NCBI GenBank assembly: GCA_947259215.1
Contig: CAMYLJ010000003.1
Location: 62,001 to 126,000, forward strand
Direction of reading: 5' to 3'
Length of the DNA: 64,000 nt
DNA from: an uncultured delta proteobacterium
GTDB taxonomy: Bacteria; Myxococcota_A; UBA9160; JAFDET01
Below the pieces are notes generated by a model. It had not been told where the DNA came from, made no database searches, and saw only the letters and a list, made by a program, of their open reading frames with translations. The position numbers were made by a program, and so were the translations under genes. This document shows positions 42,436-64,000 of this stretch, piece after piece (position 1 is the first letter of the stretch; the number at the start of each line of letters is the position of its first letter).

Positions 42436-43166
42436 TGGCGGCCGCCACCCTCTCGGGCTCGGGTCTCAGCAAGCGCTACGGCCGCAAGGAGGTCGTGAAG
42501 GGCATCGAGCTCGAGGTTCGCGCGGGCGAGGTCGTGGGCCTGTTGGGCCCGAACGGCGCGGGCAAGACCACCACCTTCGGCATGGTGGTGGGCGCGCTGC
42601 GTCCCGACGGCGGTCGCATCTTCCTGGGCGGGGAGGACATCACGGAGCTGCCCATGTACCGCCGGGCCCGTCTGGGGATCACCTACCTGCCCCAGGAGCC
42701 GTCGATCTTCCGCAAGCTGACCGTGGAGCAGAACGTGCTCGCGATCCTGGAGACGGTCGAGGCCGACGCCAGCATCCGCCGCGAACGGCTGCGCGAGCTG
42801 CTGGCGGAGCTGGGGCTCTCCGAGAAGAACACCCAGCGCGGGGATTCCCTCTCCGGCGGTGAGCGCCGGCGGGTGGAGATCACCCGGGCGCTGGTGCTCG
42901 ACCCGAAGTTCATGCTCCTGGACGAGCCCTTTTCGGGCATCGATCCGATCGCGGTGATCGACATCCAGAAGATCGTCGAGCAGCTGAAGGCGCGGGGCAT
43001 CGGGATCGTCGTCACGGACCACAACGTGCGCGAGACGCTTTCCATCTGCGACCGCGCCTACATCATCAAGGACGGCGAGATCATCCAGCACGGCCCGCCC
43101 GAGCAGGTCGCTGCCGATCCGAACGTCCGCAAGATCTACCTGGGGGACAACTTCCAGCTCGGTTGA
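42435..43166 (+). CDS. lptB: LPS export ABC transporter ATP-binding protein, 243 aa
   Basis: The nucleotide-binding domain has Walker [13 protein letters not shown] (about residues 36-47), a Q-loop [12 protein letters not shown], signature [13 protein letters not shown], Walker [14 protein letters not shown] and the H-loop [11 protein letters not shown]. The tail ending in [13 protein letters not shown] is typical of LptB. It powers extraction of lipopolysaccharide from the inner membrane with LptF and LptG, which are not in this window. ATG 42435 overlaps the lptA stop; a GTG 15 bases upstream is less likely. rpoN follows 17 bases later. Confidence 0.97.
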
Positions 43167-43183
43167 GCTGGGAGCAGCGCGCC

Positions 43184-44644
43184 ATGGCCATCGAGCTCAA
43201 GCAGCAGTTACGCCTGACCCAGCAGCTGGTGATGACGCCCCAGCTGCAGCAGGCCATCAAGCTGCTCCAGCTCTCGCGGCTCGAGCTGGTCAACGTGGTC
43301 CAGCAGGAGCTGACCGAGAACCCGGTGCTCGAGGAAGTGACCGAGGTCGAGGAGGACCAGACCGCCGAGGCCCGGTCGGCGGGCGACGTGCCGCTGGAGG
43401 CCGAGATCCCCGCCGATGCGCCCAGCGACGCCAACGGACCCGAGCCCAGCGACGCCCAGAAGATCGACGACATCGACTGGCAGAGCTACGCGGAGTCGAA
43501 CCCCCAGACGGCCCCGGCCGTGGTGCGCGACGACGACGAGCGCCGCTCGCTGGACGCGACCCACAGCCGCCGCGCGACCCTCGGCGAGCACCTGGAGTGG
43601 CAGCTCCAGCTGGCGGGTCTCTCGCCTGAGGAGACCAGCGCCGCGCGCTGGATCGTCGGCAACCTCGACGACGACGGGTACCTGAAGAGCGAGCTCGGCG
43701 AGATCGCGCGCCAGTCCGGTGTGCCCGAGGAATGCGTGGAGCGAGCGCTCGCGGCGGTCCAGGCCCTCGACCCCACGGGCGTCGGAGCCCGCGATCTGCG
43801 CGAGTGCCTGCTGCTCCAGGTGCACGCCCTGGCGATCGACGACCCGCTGGTGACCGCGCTGATCGACAAGCACCTGGACGACCTGCAGCGGCGCGACTTC
43901 CGCGGCATCGCCCGCGAGCTGGGGGTCTCGGTGGAGGAGGCCGCGGCCGCGGCGCGGGTGGTGGCCCACCTGGAGCCCCGGCCGGGGCGGCCCTTCGGCG
44001 GCGAGGAGCCGGTCTACATCGAGCCGGATATCTTCGTCTACAAGGTGGCTGACGACTTCCACATCGTGCTGAACGAGGATGGCCTGCCGAAGCTGCGAGT
44101 CAGCAATCTCTACCGCGACGTGCTGACGCGCGGCGACGCCGCCGCCAAGGAGACCCGCGACTACGTTCGCGACAAGATGCGCTCGGCCCTCTGGTTGATC
44201 AAGTCCATCCACCAGCGCCAGCGCACGATCTACAAGGTGATGCAGAGCATCATCAAGCACCAGCGGGACTTCTTCGAGCGCGGCATCCAGAATCTGCGTC
44301 CCTTGAACCTGCGAGACGTCGCGGACGACATCGAGATGCACGAATCGACCGTCAGTCGCGTGACCACCAACAAGTACGTGCAGACCCCCCAGGGCATCTA
44401 CGAGCTGAAGTTCTTCTTCAACTCGAGCATCAACCGATTCGATGGCGAGGCGATTGCCAGCGAGAGCGTCAAGGAGAAGATCCGGCGCATCGTCCAGAGC
44501 GAGGATTCGCGCAGGCCGTTGTCGGATCAACGCATTGCGGAGATGCTGAAAGCGAGCAACATCGACATCGCACGCCGCACGGTCACGAAGTATCGTGAGG
44601 CCATGCACATCCTGTCGTCGACCAAGCGGCGGCAGGTCGGGTAG
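43184..44644 (+). CDS. rpoN: RNA polymerase sigma-54 factor, 486 aa
   Basis: Region I at the N-terminus is Gln/Leu-rich (LKQQLRLTQQLVMTPQLQQA), region II is acidic, and the core-binding and DNA-binding parts follow. The C-terminal helix-turn-helix HESTVSRVTTNKYVQTPQG and the RpoN box ARRTVTKYRE (near residues 468-477) are intact. Sigma-54 directs polymerase to -24/-12 promoters and needs an activator ATPase. Such a promoter occurs in this window at 62297. It lies between lptB and ptsN, the order seen in many Proteobacteria, but without the hpf gene that often comes between rpoN and ptsN. Confidence 0.97.
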   Translation: MAIELKQQLRLTQQLVMTPQLQQAIKLLQLSRLELVNVVQQELTENPVLEEVTEVEEDQTAEARSAGDVPLEAEIPADAPSDANGPEPSDAQKIDDIDWQSYAESNPQTAPAVVRDDDERRSLDATHSRRATLGEHLEWQLQLAGLSPEETSAARWIVGNLDDDGYLKSELGEIARQSGVPEECVERALAAVQALDPTGVGARDLRECLLLQVHALAIDDPLVTALIDKHLDDLQRRDFRGIARELGVSVEEAAAAARVVAHLEPRPGRPFGGEEPVYIEPDIFVYKVADDFHIVLNEDGLPKLRVSNLYRDVLTRGDAAAKETRDYVRDKMRSALWLIKSIHQRQRTIYKVMQSIIKHQRDFFERGIQNLRPLNLRDVADDIEMHESTVSRVTTNKYVQTPQGIYELKFFFNSSINRFDGEAIASESVKEKIRRIVQSEDSRRPLSDQRIAEMLKASNIDIARRTVTKYREAMHILSSTKRRQVG

Positions 44645-59374: not shown

Positions 59375-61251
59375 GCGTCGACCCGGAGCGGGTCGAGGCG
59401 CTGCCCCAGGCGCCGGGGGTCTACCTGTTGAAGGACGCTCGCGGGCGGGTGCTCTACGTCGGCAAGGCCCAGAACCTGCGCAGCCGGGTGCGCTCCTACC
59501 TGCTGCCGGGCGGGGACGGGCGGCACCAGATCCCGCGCCTGGTGGAGCGGGCGGCGGACGTGGACGTGGTGCTGACGCCGGGCGTGAAGGATGCGCTGCT
59601 GCTCGAGAACGAGCTGATCAAGCAGCACCGGCCGCCCTTCAACGTGCGCCTGCGGGACGACAAGCAGTACCTGGCGCTGCGGCTGGATCCGCGGGCCGAC
59701 TGGCCGCGCCTGACCCAGGTGCGGCGCTTCCAGCGGGACGGCGCGCTCTACTTCGGCCCCTACACCTCGAGCCAGTCCATGCGCGAGGCGGTGTCGAACC
59801 TGAGGCGCATCTTCCCGTTGCGTTCCTGCAGCGACGCCGTCTTCCGCGACTACCAGCGGCGCGGGCGGCCCTGCATCGAGTACGAGATGAAGCGCTGCGG
59901 CGCGCCCTGCTGCGGGCGGATCGACGAGGCGGCCTACCGCGAGCTGGTGGAGGGCACCGCGCTCTTCCTGCGCGGCCGTTCGAGCGACCTGGTGGCCCTC
60001 CTCGACCGCAGGATGCAGGAGGCCGCGAAGGCCGAGCGCTTCGAGGAGGCCGCCCGGCTGCGCGATCGCATCTCGGCCGTGGAGCAGACGGTCGAGCGCC
60101 AGCAGATCGTGGCCGAGGAGGCGGCGGACCGGGACGTCTTCGGGCTGGCGCGTGACGGAGGCGAAGTCGAGCTGCAGGTGCTTCACGTGCGCGCCGGTCG
60201 CGTGGTGGGCGCCGCCGGGCACGCCTTCTCCGACGTGCGCCTCGACGACGGCGCGGTGGTGAGCTCCTTCCTGGGACAGTTCTATGCGCAACGCACCACG
60301 GACGAGATCCCTGGCGAGGTGCTCACCGGCCAGGAGATCGAGGACGAGGAGGCCCTGGAGGTCTTCCTCAGCGAGCGGCGCGAGCGGCGGGTGAGACTGC
60401 GGGTACCGCGCCGCGGCCCGCTGCGGGAGCTCGTGGCGATGGCCTCCGCCAACGCGCGGCTGGGGCTGGCGCGTCGGCTGGAGGCGCGCGAGAGCCTGGC
60501 CGCGGCGCTGGGCGAGGTGGCGGAGCGCGTGGGCCTGTCGGTCCTCCCGCGTCGCATCGAGTGCTACGACGTCTCGACCTTGAACGGGGTGCTCACCGTG
60601 GCGAGCCGGGTCGTGTTCGAGGACGGCCGCCCGGCGAAGAACGACTATCGCCGCTACCGGATTCGAAGCGTCGAGGGCGCCGACGACTACGCGGCGCTGC
60701 GCGAGGCCCTGGGGCGGCGTCTGGCGCGGGTGGAGCGCGAGCCGCTCCCCGATCTGCTGATGGTGGACGGCGGCCGCGGACAGGTCGGCGTGGTGACGGC
60801 GAGCCTGCGCGACGCCGGGCTGGAGCAGGCGGTGGAGGTGCTGGGCCTGGCCAAGGAGCGCGATTCCGAGAGCGCCACGGCCCGGGTGCGCCGCTCGGGC
60901 GGCCTCAAGGCCGAGCGCATCTTCCGGCCCGGCCGCAAGGACGCCATCCTGCTGCCCCCGAGCTCACGCGGCCTGTTGTTGCTCCAGCGCGTGCGCGACG
61001 AGTCCCACCGCTTCGCCATCGAGTACCAGCGCCGCCTCCGGAACCGGAGCGGGCTGGTGTCGATCCTGGAGGAGCTACCCGGCATCGGTCCCAAGAAGCG
61101 TCGGGCGCTGCTGCGCAGCCTCGGCTCCCTGAAGCAGGTGCGCAGCGCGAGCGCAGAACGCCTGCGGCAGGTACCCGGCATCTCCGAGGGCGACGCCGAG
61201 ATCATCCGGCGCTTCTTCGACGCTGCGGAGGCCCCCGAGCCCCCGGCGTAG
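59371..61251 (+). CDS. uvrC: Excinuclease ABC subunit C, 626 aa
   Basis: UvrC makes the 3' and 5' incisions around a lesion bound by UvrB. The N-terminal GIY-YIG nuclease is at about 13-35 ([20 protein letters not shown]). A UVR domain ([20 protein letters not shown]) lies at about 200-240. The RNase H-like nuclease includes [12 protein letters not shown] and [14 protein letters not shown], and two helix-hairpin-helix motifs end the protein ([26 protein letters not shown]). ATG 59371 overlaps uvrB. Confidence 0.97.
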
Positions 61252-61302
61252 CGCGTCAAGGTCGCCCCGAGTCCGGCCGATGCGACGAGGGGGAGGATCC
61301 GC

Positions 61303-62172
61303 ATGCGCAGGATCGCGGCCATATTGGCGCTGAGCCTGCTGGCCCTTCCGGCCGGCGGCGAGATCTATCGCTGGACCGACGCGCAGGGCCGGGTGCACTT
61401 CACCCAGGACCTCTCGCAGGTACCGCCGGACCAGCGCCCCGGCGCCGTCGAGCGGACCCTGGAGGGCTCCGAGGGCGGGCGCATCAGCACCTACTCCAGC
61501 GACTCGGACGAAGCGCCTCCCGCGCGCCGCGCCCCGGCACTCCGTACGCCGGACACGTCGGCGGGGCGCGCGGTGCACCGGATCCGCGTCGAGCGGGCTG
61601 GCACCTCCATGATGGTGGCGGCGCGTCTCAACAACAGCGTGGTCGTGCCGTTCGTGGTGGACACGGGGGCGACCGACGTCTCGATCCCGCGCTGGGCGGC
61701 GGCTCAGCTCGGCCTGCGGGACTCCGGCCGCACGCGCCAGTACATCACCGCCAACGGCATGATCGAGGAATCCGTGGTGATGCTGGATTCCGTCGAGCTG
61801 GGCGGCGCCCGCGTCGAAGGCGTGCCGGCCAGCATCAGCTCGACCATGGACGTCGGGCTCCTCGGCCTGTCGTTCTTCAACCACTTCACCTACCACGTGG
61901 ACACCGCGGGCGGCGTGCTCACCCTGGTGCCGAACGACCTGGCCGAGAGCGGCCAGATCCGCGGCGGCCGCAGCGAAGCGCAGTGGCGCTCCGAGTTCGG
62001 AGGCCTGCGCGCGCGCCTGCAGCAGGTGGACGCCGAGATGTCGCGCACCAACTCCAACGCCTCGAGCAAGCGCCAGGCACTGGACCGCTCCCGCAGCGAC
62101 CTGCTGGCACAGCTCGATCTCCTGGAGGGCGAGGCGGACCAGGCGCGTGTCCCCATGGCCTGGCGCGAGTAG
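61303..62172 (+). CDS. Exported retropepsin-like aspartic protease with DUF4124 domain, 289 aa
   Basis: A signal peptide (MRRIAAILALSLLALPAGG) is followed by a DUF4124 segment (EIYRWTDAQGRVHFTQDL). A retroviral-type clan AA protease domain comes next (about 88-210): VPFVVDTGATDVSIPRWAA with the catalytic Asp in DTGA, QYITANGMIEESVVMLDSV and LLGLSFFNHFTYHVD. The last 60 residues form a coiled coil (LRARLQQVDAEMSRTNSN). Such proteins may dimerise like retropepsin; physiological targets are unknown. It follows uvrC by 51 bases. Confidence 0.88.
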   Translation: MRRIAAILALSLLALPAGGEIYRWTDAQGRVHFTQDLSQVPPDQRPGAVERTLEGSEGGRISTYSSDSDEAPPARRAPALRTPDTSAGRAVHRIRVERAGTSMMVAARLNNSVVVPFVVDTGATDVSIPRWAAAQLGLRDSGRTRQYITANGMIEESVVMLDSVELGGARVEGVPASISSTMDVGLLGLSFFNHFTYHVDTAGGVLTLVPNDLAESGQIRGGRSEAQWRSEFGGLRARLQQVDAEMSRTNSNASSKRQALDRSRSDLLAQLDLLEGEADQARVPMAWRE

Positions 62173-62201
62173 CACCTCCAGTTCCCAGAAGCGGACGCCG
62201 G

Positions 62202-62223
62202 GTTCCCCGAACGACTGGTCGGG
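62202..62223 (+). promoter_or_regulatory. Overlapping palindromes upstream of the sigma-54 promoter
   Basis: GTTC-CCC-GAAC (62202-62212) and CCCGA-N8-TCGGG (62206-62223) lie about 75-95 bases before the -24 element. This is a usual distance for a binding site of a sigma-54 activator, but the palindromes are short and could be chance. Confidence 0.3.
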
Positions 62224-62296
62224 TCGCGGCTCGTGCGTTCCCGGGTCGCCCTGCGGTGTCGAGGACTTGCGGCCGTCTTTGCGCGTGCGTCGTCCG

Positions 62297-62312
62297 TGGC
62301 ACCGTTCTTGCT
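62297..62312 (+). promoter_or_regulatory. Sigma-54 (-24/-12) promoter
   Basis: TGGCAC (62297-62302), five bases, TTGCT (62308-62312): a full match to the consensus TGGCAC-N5-TTGCW. Transcription would start near 62323, 30 bases before the TTG start of the gene at 62353. The window also encodes RpoN. Confidence 0.8.
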
Positions 62313-62352
62313 CCCTGTAGATCTGGGGAGTCATGGAGCGGAGGACGCCGAG

Positions 62353-62709
62353 TTGAAGCCGAATCCCGACGCGCTGGAACGCTGCCGTCGCGAGCTGGAG
62401 TCCCTGGGTGTAGACACCGGATTCGCCGAGGCCATCGTGCCGACCCTGGTCGAGCTCTCGGCCTCCTCCGACACCGGGCCGACCCGGAGCGGCTTTCTCG
62501 CCGGCGTGGTGGCGGCGTACGCCGTCCACCGGGACGCCCTCGAGCGGCTGCGCCGCAGCCTGCGCGAGGTGAACGAAATGGGCCGGCTGGTCGACGCCTT
62601 CGGCGGCGAGCTGGAGAAGCTGGACGAAGCGCTGCGGACCCTGGGCGCCTACGTCGAGCGGATGCGCACGCAGACCGCGAGCGACGACGACGAGCGCGTG
62701 ATCCACTGA
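62353..62709 (+). CDS. Unknown 118-residue helical protein behind a sigma-54 promoter
   Basis: The start is taken as TTG 62353, which has GGAGGA 7 bases upstream. An ATG at 62333 is in another frame and ends after seven codons. The protein is soluble and mostly helical: PNPDALERCRRELESLGVDT, FAEAIVPTLVELSASS, GFLAGVVAAYAVHRDALERL and LVDAFGGELEKLDEALRTLG. No signal peptide, clear membrane segment or known domain is seen. A consensus sigma-54 promoter places it under activator control, e.g. for nitrogen, motility, development or envelope stress responses. comEC follows on the same strand. Confidence 0.7.
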   Translation: MKPNPDALERCRRELESLGVDTGFAEAIVPTLVELSASSDTGPTRSGFLAGVVAAYAVHRDALERLRRSLREVNEMGRLVDAFGGELEKLDEALRTLGAYVERMRTQTASDDDERVIH

Positions 62710-62723
62710 GCCGGCCGGGCTAG

Positions 62724-64000
62724 GCTGGCTGCTCCCCGGTCCCGGGGCGCAGCGACCTGGTCCGACTCCCCATCCTGCTGCTGGCGGCCGAGGCCGCGGG
62801 GATTCTCGCCGCCGACCGCGGCGCCGTGGAGCCCGGCGCGGCGCTGGTGCTGGGCGCGCTCGCGCTGGGTGCGGCACTCGTCGCCCGCGGGCGCGCGCGC
62901 GCGGCAGCGGCCGTGCTGGCCGTCGGCGTGGCGAGCGCGTTCCACCTCGGCTCGCTGCGGGTCTCCGCCGAGTCCCGGCGTCCCGCGCGACCCGTCGAGG
63001 TGACCGTCGAGGCGCGGGTGGCCGCCGCCCGTGCGACCCGCAGCGGGCGGGTGCTGGAGCTCGAGCGTGCGGTCGGCGTGCTGGCCCGCGAGCGCGCGGT
63101 GCCCGACCGGATCCGCGTGCTCCTCGCGCCGCTGCGGAAGGACGAGCTGCCGGGCATCCTGAGAGAGGTGCTGCCCGGCGATCGCGTGCGCGCGCGCCTG
63201 CGGCTTCGCGCGCCCGCTGGGCTCCGCAACCCGGGCAGCCGCTTCGATCCGGAGACCGACACCCGGCGTGGGATCGGCGCGACCGCGCAACCCGTGCATC
63301 CCCTGCTGGCGGAGCGGCTGGAAGCCGGGCGCGGGCCGGCGGCTCGCGTGGCGGACGTCCGGCGGCGCATCGACGGGCGCCTGGTCGCACTCGGTCCGGG
63401 CGGGGCGCTGCTCTCGGCGCTGGCGCTGGGCGAGCGCGGACACCTGGACGCGGCGACGCGCGACGCGTTCGCAGGTCTCGGACTTGCGCACCTGCTGGCG
63501 GTCTCCGGGCTCCACCTGGTGCTCGTGGCGGCAGCCGTGTACGCGGCGCTGCGGCTCGCGGTCGTGCGGCTGTCGCTGGCGCGCGCGCGCGACGCCCGGC
63601 AGCTGGCTGCGGCGGCGACCCTCGTCGTACTCGTCGGCTACGCGGCCCTGGCGGGCTTCGGTCTGCCGGTGCGGCGCGCGCTGCTGATGGCGACGGCCGC
63701 GGTGGCCGCGCTGCTGCGCGGGCGGGCCACGCGCCGCGAGCAGCCCCTGGTGCTGGCTGCCACGCTGCTCCTGGCCCTCGAGCCGGGGGCGCTGTTCGCG
63801 GCGGGCGCGTGGCTGTCCTTCGCCGCCGCGGCGGCGCTGGTGCTGGCAGCGGCGCCGGAGGCAGCCGAACGCCGGGGACTCGCGGCCCTGCGCGCCAGCG
63901 CCACGGCGCTGCTCACCACGGCGCCCCTGGTGGCCGGACGTCTGGGCGGGAGCGCGCCCTGGGCGCTCCCGGCCAACGCCCTGGCGGTGCCGTGGACGGG
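62724..64000 (+). CDS. comEC: ComEC/Rec2 family DNA uptake protein, 3' partial, start unclear
   Basis: The frame opens after an in-frame TAG at 62721 and runs off the window end. It encodes LVRLPILLLAAEAAGILAAD (first membrane segment), a DUF4131-like region (VEVTVEARVAAARATRSGRV to RLRLRAPAGLRNPGSRFDP), and the ComEC competence domain with GLGLAHLLAVSGLHLVLVAA and GAWLSFAAAAALVLAA. ComEC forms the inner-membrane channel for transforming DNA. No ATG, GTG or TTG precedes the first membrane segment; CTG 62757 is the likeliest start, while GTG 62826 would cut off that segment. The MBL-like C-terminal domain, if present, lies beyond the window. Confidence 0.85.

Follow-up and report, generated by a model that had tools for sequence, protein, structure and literature searches.

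What does a sigma-54 promoter control when it stands in front of a small family-less gene beside a DNA uptake gene, and which activator would act on it? The question arose from a prediction made on the letters of a stretch of 64,000 nt from an uncultured delta proteobacterium; the whole of this stretch is called the window hereafter, and the small gene is called X. We followed up the locus in its own genome (G000; 5.7 Mb in 128 contigs) and in its relatives, and all the results presented here come from draft genomes and sequence statistics. The features of the window needed below are listed in window coordinates.

43163-44644, + strand: rpoN (sigma-54), with PF04552 (E = 1.7e-62) at C3:106159-106635 (window 44159-44635)
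61303-62172, + strand: upstream neighbor with DUF4124 and a clan AA aspartyl protease (from Pfam and synteny)
62193-62206, no strand: candidate activator site (UAS) GGACGCCGGGTTCC, matching GGAA-N6-TTCC at 7 of 8 positions; degenerate and moderately supported
62297-62312, + strand: sigma-54 promoter (-24/-12) TGGCACCGTTCTTGCT, exact consensus, kept at 70 of 70 readable orthologue loci
62323-62352, + strand: predicted 30-nt leader, read from the sequence, with the ribosome-binding site GGAGGA at 62340-62345
62353-62709, + strand: gene X, 118 aa, TTG start, a class-restricted helical protein (from a 59-member alignment, profile search and AlphaFold model)
62724-64000 and past the window end, + strand: 5' part of comEC, with PF03772 (E = 7e-43) and DUF4131 (E = 6e-11); it follows X in relatives

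A conserved sigma-54 promoter upstream of gene X

The original prediction described a perfect -24/-12 element, and TGGCAC-N5-TTGCT at 62297-62312 indeed agrees throughout with the consensus TGGCAC-N5-TTGCW, with the GG of -24 and the GC of -12 at their fixed spacing. This is the only site with zero mismatches within the 64-kb window, which contains 17 other sites with two mismatches (16.3 expected by shuffling). Placing the transcription start 12 nt past the C at -12 gives a predicted +1 at 62323, deduced from the position of the -12 element. The leader of 30 bases and the GGAGGA that had been noted before TTG 62353 are both recovered with this start. The rpoN gene was found in a single copy in the genome, inside the same window as X. 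Across the whole genome, TGGCAY-N5-TTGCW presents 25 exact sites and the reversed pattern presents none. Inspecting by eye the translations of genes behind these sites, we recognized two ammonium transporters, a response regulator, an Hsp20-like protein, a type IV pilin and a further prepilin-like protein, which is the kind of gene set expected of sigma-54. Two near-identical small excisionase-like helix-turn-helix proteins (L105 and L110) also each follow an exact site and probably constitute a repeated element.

The distribution of X was established across the phylum. A protein search of 192 relatives identified the gene in 67 genomes, and a profile search, which added ten carriers to this earlier search, recovered it in 71 of 379 genomes of the phylum. 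Every one of these carriers belongs to the 91 genomes of this class, and the profile search found no X in the ~288 genomes of the phylum outside the class. One X locus (G056) is unreadable upstream because its contig ends there. At all 70 readable loci (our own and those of 69 relatives), a sigma-54 site matching at least 9 of 11 positions is found upstream of X, and the match is complete in 54 of them. Among the 59 aligned loci, our own included, GGCA-N6-TTGC lies upstream on the same strand with 11 matching positions in 48 cases, 10 in ten cases and 9 in a single case. For comparison, none of 2,973 equally long control windows from the same loci presents a complete match, and 1.7% present at least 10 matching positions. 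The site was also found at every one of 11 hold-out loci, namely the ten profile-found loci, which were not used in defining the pattern, and G073. The original prediction had been staked on the conservation of the promoter before orthologues of X; with a site at 70 of 70 readable loci, far above the control windows, it passes this test. These results confirm that a textbook sigma-54 promoter is present before X and comEC, and we infer from the sequence that this promoter depends on RpoN.

The distance between the promoter and X varies across the class. In 19 of 59 genomes, the start codon of X is located 27-30 nt past the first T of TGGCA, which places it 1-4 nt downstream of the predicted +1, and such short-leader starts occur in several families (e.g., L044, L048-L052, L054, L057, L063, L085 and L089). 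A Shine-Dalgarno-like sequence was found in none of the 20 genomes where X starts closer than 40 nt and, under a somewhat wider motif list, in 30 of the 39 genomes with longer leaders. Near-leaderless sigma-54 transcripts of X are thus predicted for roughly one third of the genomes.

Gene X and its genomic context

Gene X ends with a stop codon at 62707-62709 and its product terminates in ...VIH. A longer frame opening at GTG 62233 (158 aa) was considered and rejected because the conserved promoter would fall inside the gene and because homology begins past the TTG. The product had been described as a helical soluble protein without known domain, which agrees with the AlphaFold model: two short helices and one 70-residue helix (pLDDT 92, pTM 0.65). 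No Pfam or NCBIfam family was found above cut-off, profile and Foldseek searches gave no convincing PDB match, and the model matches no PDB fold at E ≤ 0.001. The best-conserved part of the protein is the long helix (E75, F83, E86, K89, E92, L97 and R103) together with a C-terminal LH, which is LQ in genus g19. The three-helix domain of RecX (PF02631) presents some likeness to X, including a similar N-terminal L..RGV motif, but only 2 of the 59 X members yield a weak single-domain match and the other 57 yield none. In view of these counts, and of the missing fold match, we did not retain RecX as the identity of X. The most probable reading of X is that of a small, soluble coiled-coil protein whose production keeps pace with that of ComEC. 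That X acts as a partner of ComEC is a guess about which we are doubtful; a cytoplasmic partner or a channel regulator would both be possible.

The position of X next to comEC, also part of the original prediction, is borne out: comEC lies directly downstream on the same strand, and its part inside the window carries both the competence domain and the DUF4131 domain of ComEC/Rec2 proteins. Its start codon could be GTG 62826 or a non-standard start further upstream. Wherever contigs allow, the order of genes is fixed as uvrB-uvrC-(aspartyl protease)-X-comEC, the protease being sometimes absent. Gene-order comparison indicates that the upstream protease gene is not part of the X unit, since it is absent in many relatives that keep the activator site and the promoter. 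Searches for Rfam RNA elements in 60000-64000 returned none. The genome also encodes type IV pilin and ComEA genes. Finally, one genome without X (G083) presents a weak sigma-54 site (10 of 11 positions) directly before comEC, although a single match of this kind is near chance.

An activator palindrome shared with PEP-CTERM genes

Short palindromes had been noted at activator distance upstream of the promoter. One of them, GGACGCCGGGTTCC, fits 7 of the 8 arm positions of the activator palindrome of the X family, GGAA-N6-TTCC. Its distance to the promoter is -104, equal to that of the 7/8 palindromes in the same-family relatives G002 and G003. Matches of at least 9 of 11 positions to the extended form GGGAA-N6-TTCCCA are present in 39 X upstream regions relative to 2.0 in shuffles, and perfect copies of GGAA-N6-TTCC (8/8) are present at 21 of the 59 loci relative to 0.02 expected. 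At 16 of the 59 orthologue loci, the X promoter lacks a UAS of at least 7/8. The distances from UAS to promoter cluster near 113, 124, 135, 146 and 157 nt, with a best period of ~10.4 bp; most X loci are related and share a spacing of about 135 nt, which leaves this periodicity with a smaller number of independent cases than the count implies. The UAS is thus in helical phase for the family, whereas the site of our own genome reaches only 7/8. We rejected the possibility that the UAS is left over from the upstream gene or serves as its terminator, because the site persists where the neighbor is uvrC instead of the protease.

The same arrangement was found well beyond X. A UAS followed after 98-128 nt by a sigma-54 site occurs over 100 times, spread across 62 of 93 genomes, relative to 3 occurrences of the reversed pattern. 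Of the 87 readable downstream genes, 34 end in a PEP-CTERM sorting signal (two examples scanned with Pfam fall slightly under the curated cut-off); these genes were picked by length and codon GC, so that errors in individual assignments are possible, but the excess of PEP-CTERM genes is not in doubt. The other genes behind such sites encode an ECF sigma factor, SLT transglycosylases, DUF5658 proteins and a histidine kinase. In our own genome, we identified three exosortase matches and many PEP-CTERM proteins, and two of 15 inspected PEP-CTERM loci carry tandem UAS before the sigma-54 site. The best reading of these sequence patterns is that X-comEC and the PEP-CTERM genes belong to one sigma-54 surface-matrix regulon, which suggests that comEC may be activated along with the cell-surface matrix in this class.

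Several genes behind this promoter type deserve mention in their own right. A conserved ECF sigma factor lies behind UAS and sigma-54 sites at five loci (L103, L142, L192, L212 and L213), pointing to a putative cascade from sigma-54 to the ECF factor. A conserved 165-residue protein with the same pair of sites (L136, L144 and L152) presents a zinc-ribbon-like N-terminus (YCENT..YCPRC) that we recognized by eye, the Pfam match being sub-threshold. Two other proteins, both cut by contig ends (L143 and L145), contain long PTATPTATP repeats.

The histidine kinase of this gene set offers a lead to the activator. It carries a degenerate domain resembling the AAA domain of sigma-54 activators, is single-copy in 79 of the 93 genomes and is missing in both outgroup genomes. 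Its own upstream region presents UAS and sigma-54 sites in G086, G062, G039 and G037. In our own genome (L249, C39:18500-25500; domains assigned by eye on the translation), the kinase gene is directly followed by an NtrC-type regulator and then by an HD-GYP response regulator, and a 7/8 UAS together with a sigma-54 site precedes the latter gene. NtrC-type candidates otherwise number dozens per genome. Based on its proximity to this class-specific kinase and on the autoregulation-like sites, the NtrC-type regulator of contig C39 is most likely the activator of the regulon, and an autoregulated kinase/regulator pair would be the simplest candidate.

Alternative explanations

A fortuitous origin of the -24/-12 match and of the palindromes in GC-rich DNA would fit the two-mismatch sites, which are as frequent as in shuffles. 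The 70 conserved loci, the complete lack of full matches among the control windows and the lack of reversed sites in the genome refute this explanation for the X family as a whole and leave it a negligible probability. A more serious alternative is that the promoter serves X alone, comEC having its own promoter and X merely adjoining it without relation to DNA uptake. The gap between X and comEC measures 50-110 nt in many genomes and is longer in some, which leaves room for an additional comEC promoter. In addition, ten comEC genes in relatives lacking X present no nearby sigma-54 site of at least 10/11, which indicates that comEC is not always under sigma-54 control. However, we found nothing resembling a sigma-70 promoter or a terminator in 62100-62900, and the X-comEC order is preserved in at least seven families of the class. 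In one draft genome (G030, L294), the profile finds no X and the frame after the promoter holds the N-terminal motif of X before coming to a stop; the UAS, the promoter and comEC are all retained despite this apparent truncation, which suggests that the promoter was kept for the sake of comEC. A promoter for X alone consequently appears unlikely, and X and comEC are very probably both served by a single promoter, as a putative operon.

The activator itself could be PilR, which would control X-comEC along with pilin genes as part of type IV pilus and competence control, by analogy with Ralstonia, in which twitching and competence require RpoN. The type IV pilin gene (L102) and a FimT/GspH-like gene (L118) of our own genome do carry exact sigma-54 sites, but GGAA-N6-TTCC is absent from both and is instead shared with PEP-CTERM and ECF sigma genes, and comEA has no nearby sigma-54 site. 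The missing palindrome at the pilin promoters led us to discard PilR as the activator, and we consider this explanation highly improbable.

Proposed mechanism and implications

We favor, with a probability of roughly 0.7, a sigma-54-controlled X-comEC unit whose GGAA-N6-TTCC activator is shared with PEP-CTERM genes and is likely the C39 regulator. The sigma-54 promoter would drive a two-gene unit composed of X and then comEC. A bacterial enhancer-binding protein would bind GGAA-N6-TTCC ~100-150 bp upstream and reach the RNA polymerase-sigma54 complex by DNA looping, a contact that would account for the spacing of the UAS by helical turns. The same activator would drive the PEP-CTERM (exosortase-sorted) surface proteins, the ECF sigma factor and cell-wall lytic transglycosylases, such that comEC would be induced with the surface-matrix program rather than constitutively.

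A broader proposal, which we advance only tentatively, is that this class runs DNA uptake within an exosortase/PEP-CTERM matrix program: the kinase/NtrC-type pair and sigma-54 would switch on matrix proteins, wall-remodeling enzymes and X-comEC, and X would act as a new partner or regulator dedicated to ComEC. We found no description of a sigma-54 promoter directly before comEC in the open-access literature. If DNA uptake is indeed coupled to exosortase-sorted surface proteins across the class, the acquisition of genes would be connected with life in a matrix or biofilm in a large group of uncultured Myxococcota. Being widespread, conserved and without family, and holding a fixed place before comEC, X is a direct candidate for a novel component of the machinery of DNA uptake.

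Comparison with known systems

The closest parallels come from systems where sigma-54 controls surface proteins or competence. In the PrsK/PrsR/RpoN control of PEP-CTERM genes, sigma-54 promoters are accompanied by a 17-nt motif ending in TTTACA ~63 nt upstream (Haft et al. 2006, PMC1569441), and pepA is an RpoN-dependent PEP-CTERM gene (PMC9850573). The likeness extends to PEP-CTERM genes preceded by a sigma-54 promoter and, further upstream, an activator motif, to an NtrC-type regulator with a histidine kinase and to exosortases; our own genome presents both exosortases and PEP-CTERM proteins, as does the PrsR regulon. In contrast to the TTTACA-ending motif, the activator site here is GGAA-N6-TTCC, located about 85-150 nt upstream. 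The exact hexamer TTTACA/TGTAAA, the only form searched, is found in 1 of 59 X regions and 3 of 87 UAS regions, and the cut-off of the PrsR model TIGR02915 is reached in 1 of 93 genomes, which is not our own. On the basis of this motif and of the model cut-off, we rejected canonical PrsR as the activator. The regulon described here also includes X-comEC, which the available part of the PrsR description does not mention. A second parallel is rpoN1 of Ralstonia solanacearum, where RpoN is needed for twitching motility and natural competence (PMC4371752), again tying sigma-54 to DNA uptake. The link described there is to twitching and competence, whereas here the sigma-54 site lies directly before the comEC unit and is accompanied by an activator site unlike that of the pilin genes.
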